Below, piece by piece: positions 20,156 to 22,465 of a stretch of 64,000 nt of DNA. Under the pieces are notes generated by a model that worked only from the letters and a program-made list of their open reading frames with translations, had not been told where the DNA came from and made no database searches. The stretch's first letter is position 1. Each line of letters begins with the position of its first letter. The DNA is taken from NCBI RefSeq assembly GCF_001613935.1, contig NZ_LQCI01000017.1, positions 1 through 64,000 of the forward strand, given 5' to 3'. Both the position numbers and the translations under genes were made by a program. The DNA is from Amycolatopsis regifaucium (GTDB taxonomy: Bacteria; Actinomycetota; Actinomycetes; Mycobacteriales; Pseudonocardiaceae).

Positions 20156-20638
20156 TCAGTGCCGAGGCGAGCCGGCCTGGTCGCTGAGCATGCGCAGGGC
20201 GTTCACGAGGCCGCCGATGAGGTCGCCTTCCTTGAAGGAGGCCACCATGCTGGCCACGGCGAGCTTCGCGCCGCGGTCGGGCAGGCGGTACCGGGCCTGC
20301 GAGCCCGTAACGATCTCGATGACCCGCTGGCCGGGCGACACGGCGACGACCACGGCGTCGGCCGGGTTGTCGGTCGAGGCCAGCAGGCCTTCGGCGGCCG
20401 CGCGGGTGTCGTCGCCGAGCTCGCCGAGGTACACACTGAAGTCGAGGCCGGTCTCACGGCTGGCCAGCGTCAGCGCCTCGTCCAGCCGGGCAAGCTGCTG
20501 GGTCGAGAATGGGCTGTTCGGCCCAGCCGGTTCGTACATCCTGGCAGCGGAAATCCGGCCGCTGGAGGTAACGGCGGCGCCGTAACCGGGCTCTTCGTCA
20601 ACAGCTGCGGACGCGTGGGTCAGTTCACCAGTTGCCAC
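20156..20638 (-). CDS. DUF5130 (TPM-like) domain protein
   Basis: 160 residues, GTG start. The domain reads 'FSTQQLARLDEALTLASRETGLDFSVYLGELGDDTRAAAEGLLAS' then 'ADAVVVAVSPGQRVIEIVTGSQARYRLPDRGAKLAVASMVASFKEGDLIGGLVNALRML', with the strand-helix pattern of TPM domains. No signal peptide or membrane segment is present. It overlaps the ctaJ-like gene by 14 bases and is co-transcribed with it. In Mycobacterium smegmatis the neighbouring homologue (MSMEG_4692 from memory) was found with the III-IV respiratory supercomplex, but a role here is not established. Confidence 0.8.
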   Translation of the reverse strand: MATGELTHASAAVDEEPGYGAAVTSSGRISAARMYEPAGPNSPFSTQQLARLDEALTLASRETGLDFSVYLGELGDDTRAAAEGLLASTDNPADAVVVAVSPGQRVIEIVTGSQARYRLPDRGAKLAVASMVASFKEGDLIGGLVNALRMLSDQAGSPRH

Positions 20639-20888
20639 GAGCGCCTCCCGTCACCGAAGTTCCGTCCGTCGCACCGACGGCGGTCGCACCGCCCACGCTC
20701 GCGTGCGAATGCCTGGCGCCGACCCCCTCGGGGTTGGCGCTCCACCACATGGCCGGGTACTCCCACGGCTGCCCCGGCCGGTACCGGGCGTTGCCCGCGC
20801 CCTTCGACCGCAGCGTGGCCACCCCGCAAAGCGCGTAGATGGCCAGAGGGATCACCGCGAAGACCAGGATCGTCTCGACAAGGTTCAC
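20625..20888 (-). CDS. ctaJ: Small membrane protein, probable aa3 oxidase subunit CtaJ
   Basis: 87 residues from the GTG at 20888. One N-terminal transmembrane helix ('LVETILVFAVIPLAIYALCGVATL') is followed by 'RYRPGQPWEYPAMWWSANPEG', a signature I associate with CtaJ, a small subunit of the actinobacterial aa3 cytochrome oxidase in the III2IV2 supercomplex. A low-complexity Gly/Thr/Ala tail ends the protein. Co-transcribed with the overlapping DUF5130 gene, as in mycobacteria. Assignment rests on recognition of the helix and W/P motif, without a search. Confidence 0.65.
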   Translation of the reverse strand: MNLVETILVFAVIPLAIYALCGVATLRSKGAGNARYRPGQPWEYPAMWWSANPEGVGARHSHASVGGATAVGATDGTSVTGGARGNW

Positions 20889-21188
20889 GCGCGTGAGCGT
20901 ATCCGACCCGGGTACGGAACGCCGTGCCGCACCCGGTCCCGTGACGCGCTCCGTGCCGCTCACCACTCGCCGTCCGGGAGGGGCCGTCCGCCGCTTGCCG
21001 CGAAAGCGCTCCCACGTTGAGCCGAAGCCCTCAAGGCCGAAAGGTTGCAACTCAACGTACGGGCGGCCGCACCGGGCGCTGTCGTCTTGTCGCGGCCTTG
21101 AAATCCTCGTAGCTTTTTCACCTGTACGGGCCTTGCGCCCAGCTTCCCCACCCCAGCAGGTAACGCACCGGTCGCAGGAGGATATGTC
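20889..21188. other. Divergent intergenic region before the repeat-protein gene
   Basis: 300 bases between the ctaJ start and the repeat-protein start. It holds a strong ribosome site (AGGAGG ending seven bases before the ATG at 21189). A possible but weak promoter lies around 21096-21125 (TTGAAA then TGTACG, 19-base gap). I see no RNA gene, repeat or clear operator. Confidence 0.5.
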
Positions 21189-21560
21189 ATGCAGAGCACC
21201 CAGACACCCGGCCAGGCGATCAACGACGACATTTCGTCACTCTTCGAAACTGAATTCTTCACCGGCACGCGTGTGACGGCGGGCACACGGGTTACGCGGG
21301 GTACTCGTGTCACTCGCGGTACCCGGGTCACCGCCGGCACCCGCGTCACCCGTGGCACCCGGGTGACCCGAGGCACCCGCGTCACCGCCGGCACTCGCGT
21401 CACCTGTGGAACCCGCGTCACCCGGGGTACGCGCGTCACACGCGGCACCCGCGTCACGGCCGGCACTCGTGTCACCTGCGGAACCCGGGTCACCCGTGGC
21501 ACGCGCGTCACTCGCGGCACCCGCGTGACCTGCAAGAACGACTTCGCGCTGGCCGCCTGA
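21189..21560 (+). CDS. Novel six-residue tandem-repeat protein (GTRVTx)15
   Basis: 123 residues. An acidic 25-residue N-terminus ('MQSTQTPGQAINDDISSLFE', then TEFFT) precedes fifteen exact units of G-T-R-V-T-x (residues 26-115) and an eight-residue tail KNDFALAA. The variable sixth residue runs A R R A R R A C R R A C R R C. Among the 75 codons for the five constant positions, every base difference between units is in the third position, so the frame is certain and the protein is under selection. AGGAGG lies at ideal distance. The alternation V-T-x-G-T-R resembles hexapeptide left-handed beta-helix units, which would give three hexads per 18-residue turn (inference). No signal peptide, membrane segment or maturation enzyme is nearby. 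A RiPP-like precursor (acidic leader, Thr/Cys core) is a less likely alternative. I recognise no family. Confidence 0.8.
   Translation: MQSTQTPGQAINDDISSLFETEFFTGTRVTAGTRVTRGTRVTRGTRVTAGTRVTRGTRVTRGTRVTAGTRVTCGTRVTRGTRVTRGTRVTAGTRVTCGTRVTRGTRVTRGTRVTCKNDFALAA
21264..21533 (+). repeat. 15 tandem 18-bp coding repeats
   Basis: Fifteen in-register units of 18 bases, consensus GGCACCCGCGTCACC plus one variable codon. Units differ from each other at several wobble positions, so they are old rather than recently amplified. Because 18 is a multiple of three and stops are absent, all six frames stay open across the array. Confidence 0.95.
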
Positions 21561-21652
21561 GCCCGAGCACGACCGGCCGGACGGCGAGACGCGGCAGTAG
21601 GAGATTGCGTGATTTTCAGCGGTACCGAGCAGCACGACGGCATCATCGGCCC

Positions 21653-21703: not shown

Positions 21704-22465
21704 TCAGGCCGCCGTTCCCAGGTACGGCCGCCACAACGGGTCCGCTTCCTTCGAGTGGGCGAGCAGCCGCCAGTGCGGCCCGTGCGGGGCCCTCGGCACG
21801 ACGCGCAGCCGCCAGCCGATCTCGGACAGCAGCTTGTCCGCCTTCCGATGGTTGCATTTGGCGCAGCAGGCCACGCAGTTCGTCCAGCTGTGGGGACCGC
21901 CACGGCTGCGCGGGACGACGTGGTCGATCGTCTCGGCCCTTCCCCCGCAGTAGGCGCAGCGGTACCGGTCGCGGTGCATCAGCCCGGCCCGGGTCAGCGG
22001 CACCTGCGCGCGGTAGGGCACGCGTACGTAGGTACTCAGCCGGATCACCGAAGGCACGGGCAGTGAAACCGTGGCGGCGTGCAGTTCGAGCCCTCCGGGG
22101 TCGCCATGCACCACCTCGGCCTTGCCGCACATCACCAGCACCACCGCGCGCCGCAACGGCAGCGCCGTGAGCGGCTCGAACGTGGCGTTCAACAGCAATA
22201 CCCGTCTGCGACCCCACGAAGTCGTCGTGGGTGCCGCCGTAGGCGACGGATCCCGCCCTCTACGCTGTCCGGGCGGGCGGGCAACACCCCCTGGCCGGGT
22301 TCCCGGCCCGCCCGGTAGGGCCCCGTGCGAGGGGGCACCTCCCGGATGAGCGCGCAACACGACCTCCGGCGCCTGTCCGGCCAAGGCTTGGCTCGGGACG
22401 CCGAGGGGGATGGGTTGTCGGTCTGGCACTCGACCACCTCCACCGGTGCAGGCATAGTCGACCAC
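21704..22465 (-). CDS. HNH endonuclease
   Basis: Up to 253 residues; the conserved part begins only at about residue 87 ('RRVLLLNATFEPLTALPLRRAVVLVMCGKAEVVHGD'). The first 86 residues are low-complexity and poorly coding-like, so the true start is uncertain and may be a rare codon near 22220. The HNH/zinc core is 'YRCAYCGGRAETIDHVVPRSRGGPHSWTNCVACCAKCNHRKADKL', with CxxC pairs and the His-Asn-His order. This universal actinobacterial HNH protein (Rv2469c type) has no known target. Convergent with the repeat-protein gene. Confidence 0.85.
   Translation of the reverse strand: MVDYACTGGGGRVPDRQPIPLGVPSQALAGQAPEVVLRAHPGGAPSHGALPGGPGTRPGGVARPPGQRRGRDPSPTAAPTTTSWGRRRVLLLNATFEPLTALPLRRAVVLVMCGKAEVVHGDPGGLELHAATVSLPVPSVIRLSTYVRVPYRAQVPLTRAGLMHRDRYRCAYCGGRAETIDHVVPRSRGGPHSWTNCVACCAKCNHRKADKLLSEIGWRLRVVPRAPHGPHWRLLAHSKEADPLWRPYLGTAA

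Follow-up and report, generated by a model that had tools for sequence, protein, structure and literature searches.

The window, i.e., the whole 64,000-nucleotide stretch of DNA that was analysed, contains an open reading frame (21189–21560, plus strand) whose translation gives an array protein of 123 amino acids. The array gene and the features surrounding it are as follows.

20625–20888, minus strand: ctaJ, encoding a subunit of an aa3-type cytochrome oxidase, divergent from the array gene (NCBIfam NF050118, 96.4 bits versus a cut-off of 43).
21087–21115, plus strand: putative sigma-70-like promoter inferred from the sequence, with TTGTCG (21087–21092), a 17-nt spacer and TAGCTT (21110–21115).
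21116–21137, plus strand: conserved element TTTCACCTGTACGGGCCTTGCG at the expected transcription start, matched nowhere else in the genome when up to 3 mismatches are allowed.
21176–21181, plus strand: AGGAGG ribosome-binding site, 7 nt before the ATG (read directly and from the leader alignment).
21189–21263, plus strand: leader peptide MQSTQTPGQAINDDISSLFETEFFT, 25 residues, acidic and variable (translation).
21264–21533, plus strand: array of 15 uninterrupted GTRVTx units of 18 bases each in exact register (translation).
21534–21560, plus strand: tail KNDFALAA and stop codon; DFALAA resembles EFALAA, with which this genome's tmRNA tag ends.
21704–22465, minus strand: HNH endonuclease-domain gene, convergent with the array gene (Pfam HNH_5 and HNH).

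Retranslation confirmed the layout given in an earlier note on this DNA, namely a 25-residue leader, 15 GTRVTx units in an 18-base register and an eight-residue tail, and the AGGAGG ribosome site that it had reported was found at 21176–21181, 7 nt from the ATG. Its placement of the gene in a housekeeping block, between ctaJ (NF050118 above cut-off) and the HNH gene (Pfam HNH_5 and HNH), was borne out as well, and the scan of five flanking genes showed a DUF5130/TPM gene beyond ctaJ and MscS and globin genes after the HNH gene. The product of the HNH gene (21704–22465, minus strand) also showed similarity, below cut-off, to the HNH part of the IscB and Cas9d models. The array protein had been called unrecognised, and indeed the window protein matched nothing in Pfam or NCBIfam above cut-off; searches against Pfam, NCBIfam and PHROGs gave weak composition-like matches and nothing more, the best match among PDB sequences had E = 0.042, and Rfam gave insignificant matches and no others. 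No account of this gene family was found in the literature, as covered by open-licence papers.

The sixth residues of the window units are, in order, A R R A R R A C R R A C R R C, and the 15 DNA copies use three to four different codons at each of the five other positions while the encoded protein sequence is identical. Chance is excluded as the origin of the array by these codon-diverse, protein-identical copies together with matches in 80 of 80 genomes of the genus. An antisense frame of 228 codons (20960–21646, minus strand) is also open through the array and reads VTRVPx repeats. Both the selection pattern and the ribosome site favour the plus frame over this one, which, judging by where the constraint falls, probably arises as a side effect of GC-rich coding.

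With up to 3 mismatches allowed, the 22-nt element upstream of the array gene has a single occurrence in the window genome, compared with zero for its backwards-read control. A strict consensus promoter scanner did not call the window promoter. The promoter-like arrangement together with the element expression TTTCACCT[GA]T[AC][CT]GG.[CT]CTTGC precedes most of the arrays that were collected regardless of their upstream region, and the expression is unmatched upstream of some of them, e.g., L080, L081, L090, L121, L127, L131, L141 and L153. Scanning of a one-genome-per-species collection for the −35 box and the element yielded at least 118 stretches; the listed loci were thus selected by the element, and the unselected evidence consists of the arrays collected without it, some of which lack the element. 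The genera named for the listed loci are ones that we take to belong to Pseudonocardiaceae, except for ‘Nocardia’ sp. NRRL S-836 and a ‘Melainabacteria’ contig. At the former locus (L245, NZ_LGDY01000104.1, ‘Nocardia sp. NRRL S-836’), the element and an SVRIT array of the Lentzea type suggest a misnamed strain; at the latter (L224, CAJCJE010000210.1), the element is accompanied by a GTRVT array, and the Candidatus Melainabacteria label looks wrong. Among the matches listed, which were chosen by the element pattern, the spacing TTGTNN–17 nt–TA[GCA] was found at 111 of 118 named loci, and an array gene with its ATG 32–55 nt past the element was present at 117 of 118, the sole exception among the matches listed being L297, where the locus stops approximately 125 bases past the element. 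In an alignment of 27 leaders, picked by the element, 15 columns are invariant, of which 12 lie in the element and 3 are those of the ATG, and two G columns of the ribosome site are at least 90% conserved in the 27 sequences; conservation in the leader alignment is limited to the element, the ribosome site and the start. A PHO box at the element was considered and rejected, since TTCACC is present but the second unit at 11 nt is absent; the PHO box unit is quoted as GTTCACC in the part of PMC6988585 consulted.

The pentapeptide GTRVT represents one version, or dialect, of the more general word [GS]-[TVI]-R-[VI]-[TSNHE], whose Arg is near-invariant, and words are nearly uniform inside one protein and differ between lineages. 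At the HNH-adjacent spot of genera without GTRVT, an equivalent gene was found with SVRIT, GVRIH, GIRVN or GVRVN, GVRVT or GTRIT, and 29 further genomes, covering 26 genera, added the words GVRIS, GVRIE, GIRVT and GVRIN. The 117 arrays among the matches listed are distributed over GTRVT (62), SVRIT (31), GVRIS (16), GIRVN (2) and GVRIH (2), with GVRVN, GVRVT, GVRIE and GTRIT represented by a single array each among the same matches. Linker length follows the dialect among the matches listed: one residue in 828 of 1,049 GTRVT linkers, two residues in 10 of 20 GIRVN linkers, and three to four residues in 443 of 492 SVRIT and 184 of 213 GVRIS linkers, with an overall range from 1 to 30 residues. 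The unit is mostly 8 or 9 residues long in SVRIT and GVRIS arrays, the two lengths being mixed within one array, and the linker sequences are diverse (R, A, M, AHDD, ARD, MDD, SQER and others). Copy number varies from 2 to 60 and complete relatives have 49–470 amino acids among the matches listed, and arrays with 2–5 copies and 10–30-residue linkers exist. Very long arrays were seen at L103 (G068; 48 copies), L305 (60), L258 (47) and L291 (51), and L305 and L103 contain blocks that appear recently repeated. The mean net charge per residue is +0.158 for GTRVT and −0.019 for SVRIT arrays; a polycation or nucleic-acid binder acting by charge was rejected as a general account, the SVRIT arrays being neutral on average. 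Serine/threonine phosphorylation was likewise rejected as a general function, as the cores GVRIH, GIRVN and GVRIE contain neither Thr nor Ser. Elsewhere in the 8-kb loci, the same word was found as one GTRVT in a long frame and as six SVRIT, confined to SVRIT-array loci, in short frames on the opposite strand at a distance of approximately 2.1–2.5 kb.

The array gene is a single-copy Pseudonocardiaceae gene at a fixed locus. A survey of the genus, which the earlier note had suggested, gave matches to the window protein in 80 of 80 genomes, its own included (E up to 0.001), with a varying repeat number, and the possibility that the array is strain-specific noise was ruled out by this result together with the arrays found in 39 of 46 genera. 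At E up to 1e-6, 128 of 297 genomes of the family, from 25 of 46 genera, matched the window protein, and 292 of the 297 yielded the convergent HNH gene. Hand compilation showed, for 39 of the 46 sampled genera, an array in one or more of the genomes read; in the other seven (g3, g4, g5, g28, g36, g37 and g42) no array was seen in the one or two genomes read each, and among the 29 further genomes from 26 genera no array was seen at 9 of 29 loci (L119, L123, L124, L125, L130, L132, L137, L145 and L146). Among the matches listed, the HNH gene was detected at 107 loci, and at all 107 it lies downstream of the array gene and on the opposite strand; the loci where it was not found are ten with fewer than 700 bases left and L229. 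The latter locus, from Saccharomonospora saliphila, is the only one among the matches listed with room downstream yet no HNH gene.

Of 348 genomes searched across the order, 49 gave a match at E up to 1e-8; the 11 from outside the family scored E 1e-13 or weaker, and one of these 11, G434 of the family f4, carries a real array. In the class, 6 of 345 genomes matched, of which the window's own and G123 are family members and the remaining four are weak. Reading of 17 genomes of f4, another family of the order, revealed short arrays beside the HNH gene in seven, with the words GTRVG, RGSRIG, RGARIG, RGGRFG, RGVRVG and RGIRMG, and two further loci (L185 and L186) are ambiguous; both the upstream element and the LAA tail are absent from the seven f4 arrays. 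A search for the HNH gene in 18 genomes of other families matched 17, and apart from G434, no array was seen at the best HNH locus read in 15 of 16 of these genomes (not L164).

The copies of the word are under strong purifying selection at the protein level. Among the matches listed, the 114 arrays with at least four copies contain 28 one-substitution copies out of 1,992, a count that is blind to copies with two or more changes but is a fairer measure than core counts based on exact words, and these 28 substitutions fall at word positions 1–5 in the numbers 5, 7, 7, 6 and 3 among the same matches. Conversely, the codons are close to random: the mean codon identity between copies, compared with that of independent draws, is 0.445 versus 0.437 for GTRVT, 0.531 versus 0.522 for SVRIT and 0.631 versus 0.600 for GVRIS, the expectation being uninformative for word classes with one or two arrays since it is derived from the same arrays. 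Serine is encoded from both of its codon families, and arginine from CGN and AGG. In a comparison of 13 arrays, third-position identity was 0.754 for the same repeat between species and 0.404 between different repeats of an array. The copies are thus old and independent yet identical in protein, from which strong purifying selection on the copies follows. Recent homogenisation of the copies was ruled out for typical arrays by the third-position identities and the randomised codons, and some arrays have clearly expanded recently, e.g., L305, in which distinct DNA words make up 28% of the copies. The 13-array comparison grouped species by the sixth-residue string, so that its zero nonsynonymous count at x is meaningless, and it admitted few variant words; the pairwise core labels required exact words, so that zero core changes are partly a matter of definition. 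Nearly two thousand near-invariant copies with randomised codons are unusually strong evidence that selection acts on a short peptide word.

Linkers and leaders behave differently from the cores in pairwise counts, which, as in the 13-array comparison, sum over related pairs. Linker changes amounted to 1,260 nonsynonymous versus 639 synonymous in 139 SVRIT pairs and to 2,324 versus 1,623 in the wider GTRVT comparisons, and to 32 nonsynonymous versus 232 synonymous in 67 close GTRVT pairs, where the linkers are fairly constrained. In the leaders of the same 67 close GTRVT pairs, 244 nonsynonymous and 63 synonymous changes were counted, and the first 20–25 codons of the 139 SVRIT pairs showed 459 and 62, respectively. 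The leader excess reflects either nucleotide-level constraint near the start or fast evolution of the leader.

The tail of the array protein resembles the peptide tag encoded by tmRNA, which in the window genome is AEPKSQREFALAA. Of 22 relatives, 21 yielded a tmRNA, and every one of these tags ends with YALAA or FALAA, the aromatic residue being preceded by D or E in 15 of the 21 and by A in 6. The tag of L317 (G028) is unusually long, ANSNERVQVANATRGDFALAA, the other 20 having 12–13 residues. Among the matches listed, the C-termini of 109 complete array proteins are LAA in 57, another AA in 14, another A in 9 and otherwise in 29, whereas none of 421 neighbouring long frames of the same loci ends with LAA; the 57 LAA proteins are related by descent, and such contrasts do not represent independent events. 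The 57 share more than LAA: among the matches listed, 49 read [DE][FY]xLAA, with D or E at position −6 in 53 and F or Y at position −5 in 51, and the LAA itself is encoded by 10 nucleotide versions. By word, this set comprises GTRVT (29), SVRIT (26), GVRVT (1) and GVRIH (1) arrays among the matches listed, and 0 of the 15 GVRIS arrays among them end with LAA; the LAA genera include Amycolatopsis, Lentzea, Saccharothrix, Qaidamihabitans, Goodfellowiella and Streptoalloteichus. Sixty-nine of the 421 neighbouring long frames among the matches listed end with AA; the HNH gene, whose product has this ending in the window, probably inflates the number, and the background consists of long GC3-rich open frames as opposed to annotated genes. 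The array tails of the SVRIT genomes G086, G099, G100 and G110 are NDFSLAA, RITALAA, DELALAA and SRYALAG, while the tags of all four end with RAFALAA; the array tail does not copy the host tag letter by letter, which argues against close mimicry. The array protein carries the C-terminal LAA of an SsrA-type C-degron, and its ClpX-dependent degradation is predicted on this basis.

Structure prediction and profile searches gave mixed indications of a fold. AlphaFold2 modelling of the window protein with 30 relatives gave a mean pLDDT of 60 (five models, 60 to 41), that of a Lentzea protein with 12 relatives a mean of 72 (72–39), and the models of both proteins placed short strands at the motifs with low and inconsistent confidence; AlphaFold2 is described, in the part of PMC11795689 consulted, as over-predicting confident but unrealistic solenoids for perfect repeats. 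Foldseek returned no match for the window and Lentzea models at E up to 0.001, the rows for the window model being mostly beta-helix proteins with E of 0.07 or more and the first row for the Lentzea model being the amyloid FapC (E 0.042, probability 0.04). Among the window protein and seven relatives, Pfam and NCBIfam searches gave nothing or unrelated families, DUF2345 with the SVRIT type being the strongest. This Pfam model, which we take to be VgrG-associated, was matched by 13 of 13 SVRIT-type proteins scanned (E up to 0.001), with 77.6 (L195) and 52.2 bits against a cut-off of 30.7 in two of them, and in the PDB a profile built from the 13 proteins matched two chains of the VgrG type (E 0.0016 and 0.012). 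The DUF2345 match was lost when L195 was reversed or its core permuted, and reversed L195 exceeded the cut-offs of a few unrelated models. The reversed GVRIS protein L197 also scored above the cut-off of Gp5_trimer_C, the phage T4 gp5 trimerisation model (38.6 versus 30.9), a caution against naming repeat proteins by such profiles, and the true SVRIT protein L227 also passed the cut-offs of Cupin_3, PUA_4 and others. In the GTRVT-type set, which includes the window protein, 0 of 31 proteins matched any Pfam model at E up to 0.001. The array proteins consist of leader, array and tail, and gp27/gp5-like spike domains are absent. The earlier suggestion of a small beta-solenoid with three hexads per turn is not supported, since the sixth residue shows no period of 3 and the units of relatives are mostly of 8 or 9 residues, and since linkers reach 30 residues and drift while the core stays, in addition to the mean pLDDT of 60; a beta-strand stack of another kind is possible, the wider idea of a beta-solenoid being favoured by the DUF2345 matches of the SVRIT type and the VgrG chains in the PDB. 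A threonine-ladder surface, which had been offered as an alternative, fails as a general account, given the GVRIH, GIRVN and GVRIE cores without Thr or Ser. The earlier observation is thereby extended to a family-wide gene with lineage-specific words, an element that is single in the genome and, often, an encoded tmRNA-like tail.

The leading proposal for the function of the array protein, to which a probability of roughly 0.3 is given, is that of a short-lived cytosolic multivalent peptide bait addressed to ClpXP. The array gene would yield a cytosolic, lysine-poor string of identical five-residue peptides on drifting linkers, and its repeats may serve, in the manner of a sponge or bait, as multivalent docking sites for a single specific partner recognising the Arg-hydrophobic core. 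In that case the LAA tail could direct the bait, alone or with cargo, to ClpXP, so that the level of the bait might track its synthesis against free ClpXP capacity. A candidate partner is the N-domain of ClpX: the SspB tail XB, an adaptor peptide for this domain, ends with LRVVK, which appears similar by eye to TRVT and VRIT. Beads on a string are favoured over one fold because of the drifting linkers, the copy numbers from 2 to 60 and the dialect-dependent unit lengths, and among the matches listed the 28 substituted copies of 1,992 with randomised codons and the LAA ends in 57 of 109 complete proteins versus 0 of 421 long frames also speak for the bait. Against it, no partner was found, 52 of 109 complete proteins among the matches listed lack LAA, the tail departs from the host tag in individual letters, and the linkers in close GTRVT pairs are constrained (232 synonymous versus 32 nonsynonymous changes). 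A bait of 15–60 copies should, moreover, tolerate a few bad copies, yet few are seen, and ClpX varies little, which leaves the word changes unexplained. The SVRIT matches, above cut-off to DUF2345 and weak to VgrG, also count against the bait and favour a stacked fold.

Such a fold is nearly as likely as the bait, because self-recognition accounts for both the uniformity and the change of the words, and because of the DUF2345 matches. Each repeat would be a short beta-strand that stacks on other repeats as a solenoid within the chain, a homotrimeric beta-prism like those of VgrG or T4 gp5, or a functional amyloid, and the LAA tail would keep the assembler scarce. With another repeat as the partner of each repeat, a word that is uniform within a protein and changes between lineages is accounted for, and the strands placed at the motifs by AlphaFold2, the weak matches of the window protein to left-handed beta-helix enzymes and the constrained copies agree with this account, as do the DUF2345 matches of 13 of 13 SVRIT-type proteins, their loss on reversing or permuting L195, and the VgrG-type PDB chains. 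The profile evidence is offset by models that catch nonsense too (reversed L197 and L195, and L227 in Cupin_3 and PUA_4) and by the GTRVT-type set, with 0 of 31 Pfam matches at E up to 0.001. Unit length also varies by dialect, with 8 and 9 mixed within SVRIT and GVRIS arrays, Foldseek gave no match at E up to 0.001, arrays of 2–5 copies with 10–30-residue linkers exist, and the AlphaFold2 means are low (60–41 and 72–39), though a monomer run would miss a trimer. If the array were instead a multicopy peptide precursor, cut into identical short peptides that serve as a lineage-specific signal or a RiPP while the tail feeds ClpP, the leader, the identical copies, the freely varying copy number and linkers and the lineage-specific words would be expected; this is less likely than the bait or the stacked fold because conserved cut sites are absent, no constant residue or linker flanking the cores as a protease site. 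The leader drifts as well, and genes for modification, protease or export are absent among the five flanking genes scanned, though unlinked enzymes are possible. In an improbable variant, the precursor would be made for destruction, the tail leading it to the ClpXP chamber, which releases word peptides to be read by a co-evolving receptor; such a receptor would explain copies uniform in each species and words different between genera. A small repeat protein that shifts secondary metabolism under nutrient stress, as AfsS does, has small size, repeats and single copy in common with the array protein, and is a rather unlikely account given the differences in unit length, copy number and tail and the lack of a regulator gene among the five neighbours scanned. 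A non-coding repeat at the DNA or RNA level, or a repeat translated without function, might be considered since GC-rich arrays open several frames, the antisense one included, but is very improbable: synonymous sites are saturated among copies that encode the same protein sequence, the start, ribosome site and element are conserved, and Rfam matches are insignificant. At the protein level, the near-invariance of the copies together with their randomised codons refutes this account.

Industrially important actinomycetes, among them Amycolatopsis, Saccharopolyspora, Lentzea and Saccharothrix, retain this family-wide gene at a single locus, and no curated model searched describes it as a family. 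The change of word between genera is a natural specificity swap, and the upstream element, single in the window genome, should lead to its regulator. If the tail works, actinobacteria would possess a natural mimic of the tmRNA tag, encoded in the gene itself, that offers a way into their ClpXP biology.

Of the characterised systems, Streptomyces AfsS (AfsR2) may be regarded as nearest in spirit. AfsS is described, in the part of PMC2267785 consulted, as a pleiotropic antibiotic regulator of 63 amino acids with three 12-amino-acid repeats and an unresolved mechanism. Compared by description only, both are small actinobacterial repeat proteins without an obvious DNA-binding site and encoded by a single gene, whereas the array protein has 123 amino acids with 15 six-residue units and its family has pentapeptide arrays of 2–60 copies. 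The six-residue period and the V and small residues of the GTRVTx dialect, together with weak matches, recall the beta-helix of LpxA, LpxD and DapD; in contrast to these enzymes, all five core residues are fixed, Arg included, and relatives have units of 8 and 9. Strict hexad units are present in the window and most GTRVT arrays and absent from SVRIT and GVRIS arrays, no hexapeptide model was among the Pfam matches of the window protein, and NCBIfam LpxD scored 21.3 bits against a cut-off of 207. The DUF2345 matches and VgrG chains found with the SVRIT type would link the arrays to the beta-prism of VgrG and T4 gp5, from which they differ by unit lengths of 6, 8 and 9, the lack of spike domains, the unmatched GTRVT type and the ability of reversed controls to pass. 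Fungal multicopy pheromone precursors have a comparable layout of leader and repeated cores, and multicore RiPP and other multicopy precursors also repeat identical cores behind a leader; unlike in multicore RiPPs, the linkers vary in length and sequence, with no conserved cleavage site beside the cores. XB of SspB, which binds the zinc-binding domain of ClpX according to the part of PMC12373786 consulted, is, compared by eye, a similar short Arg-hydrophobic motif tethering to ClpX, but is present as one copy in an adaptor protein. Finally, the tmRNA (SsrA) tag shares the LAA end, mostly as [DE][FY]xLAA, with DFALAA in the window protein and EFALAA in its own tag; in contrast to the tag, which is added in trans, the array tail is encoded by the gene, and it is missing in 52 of 109 relatives among the matches listed.
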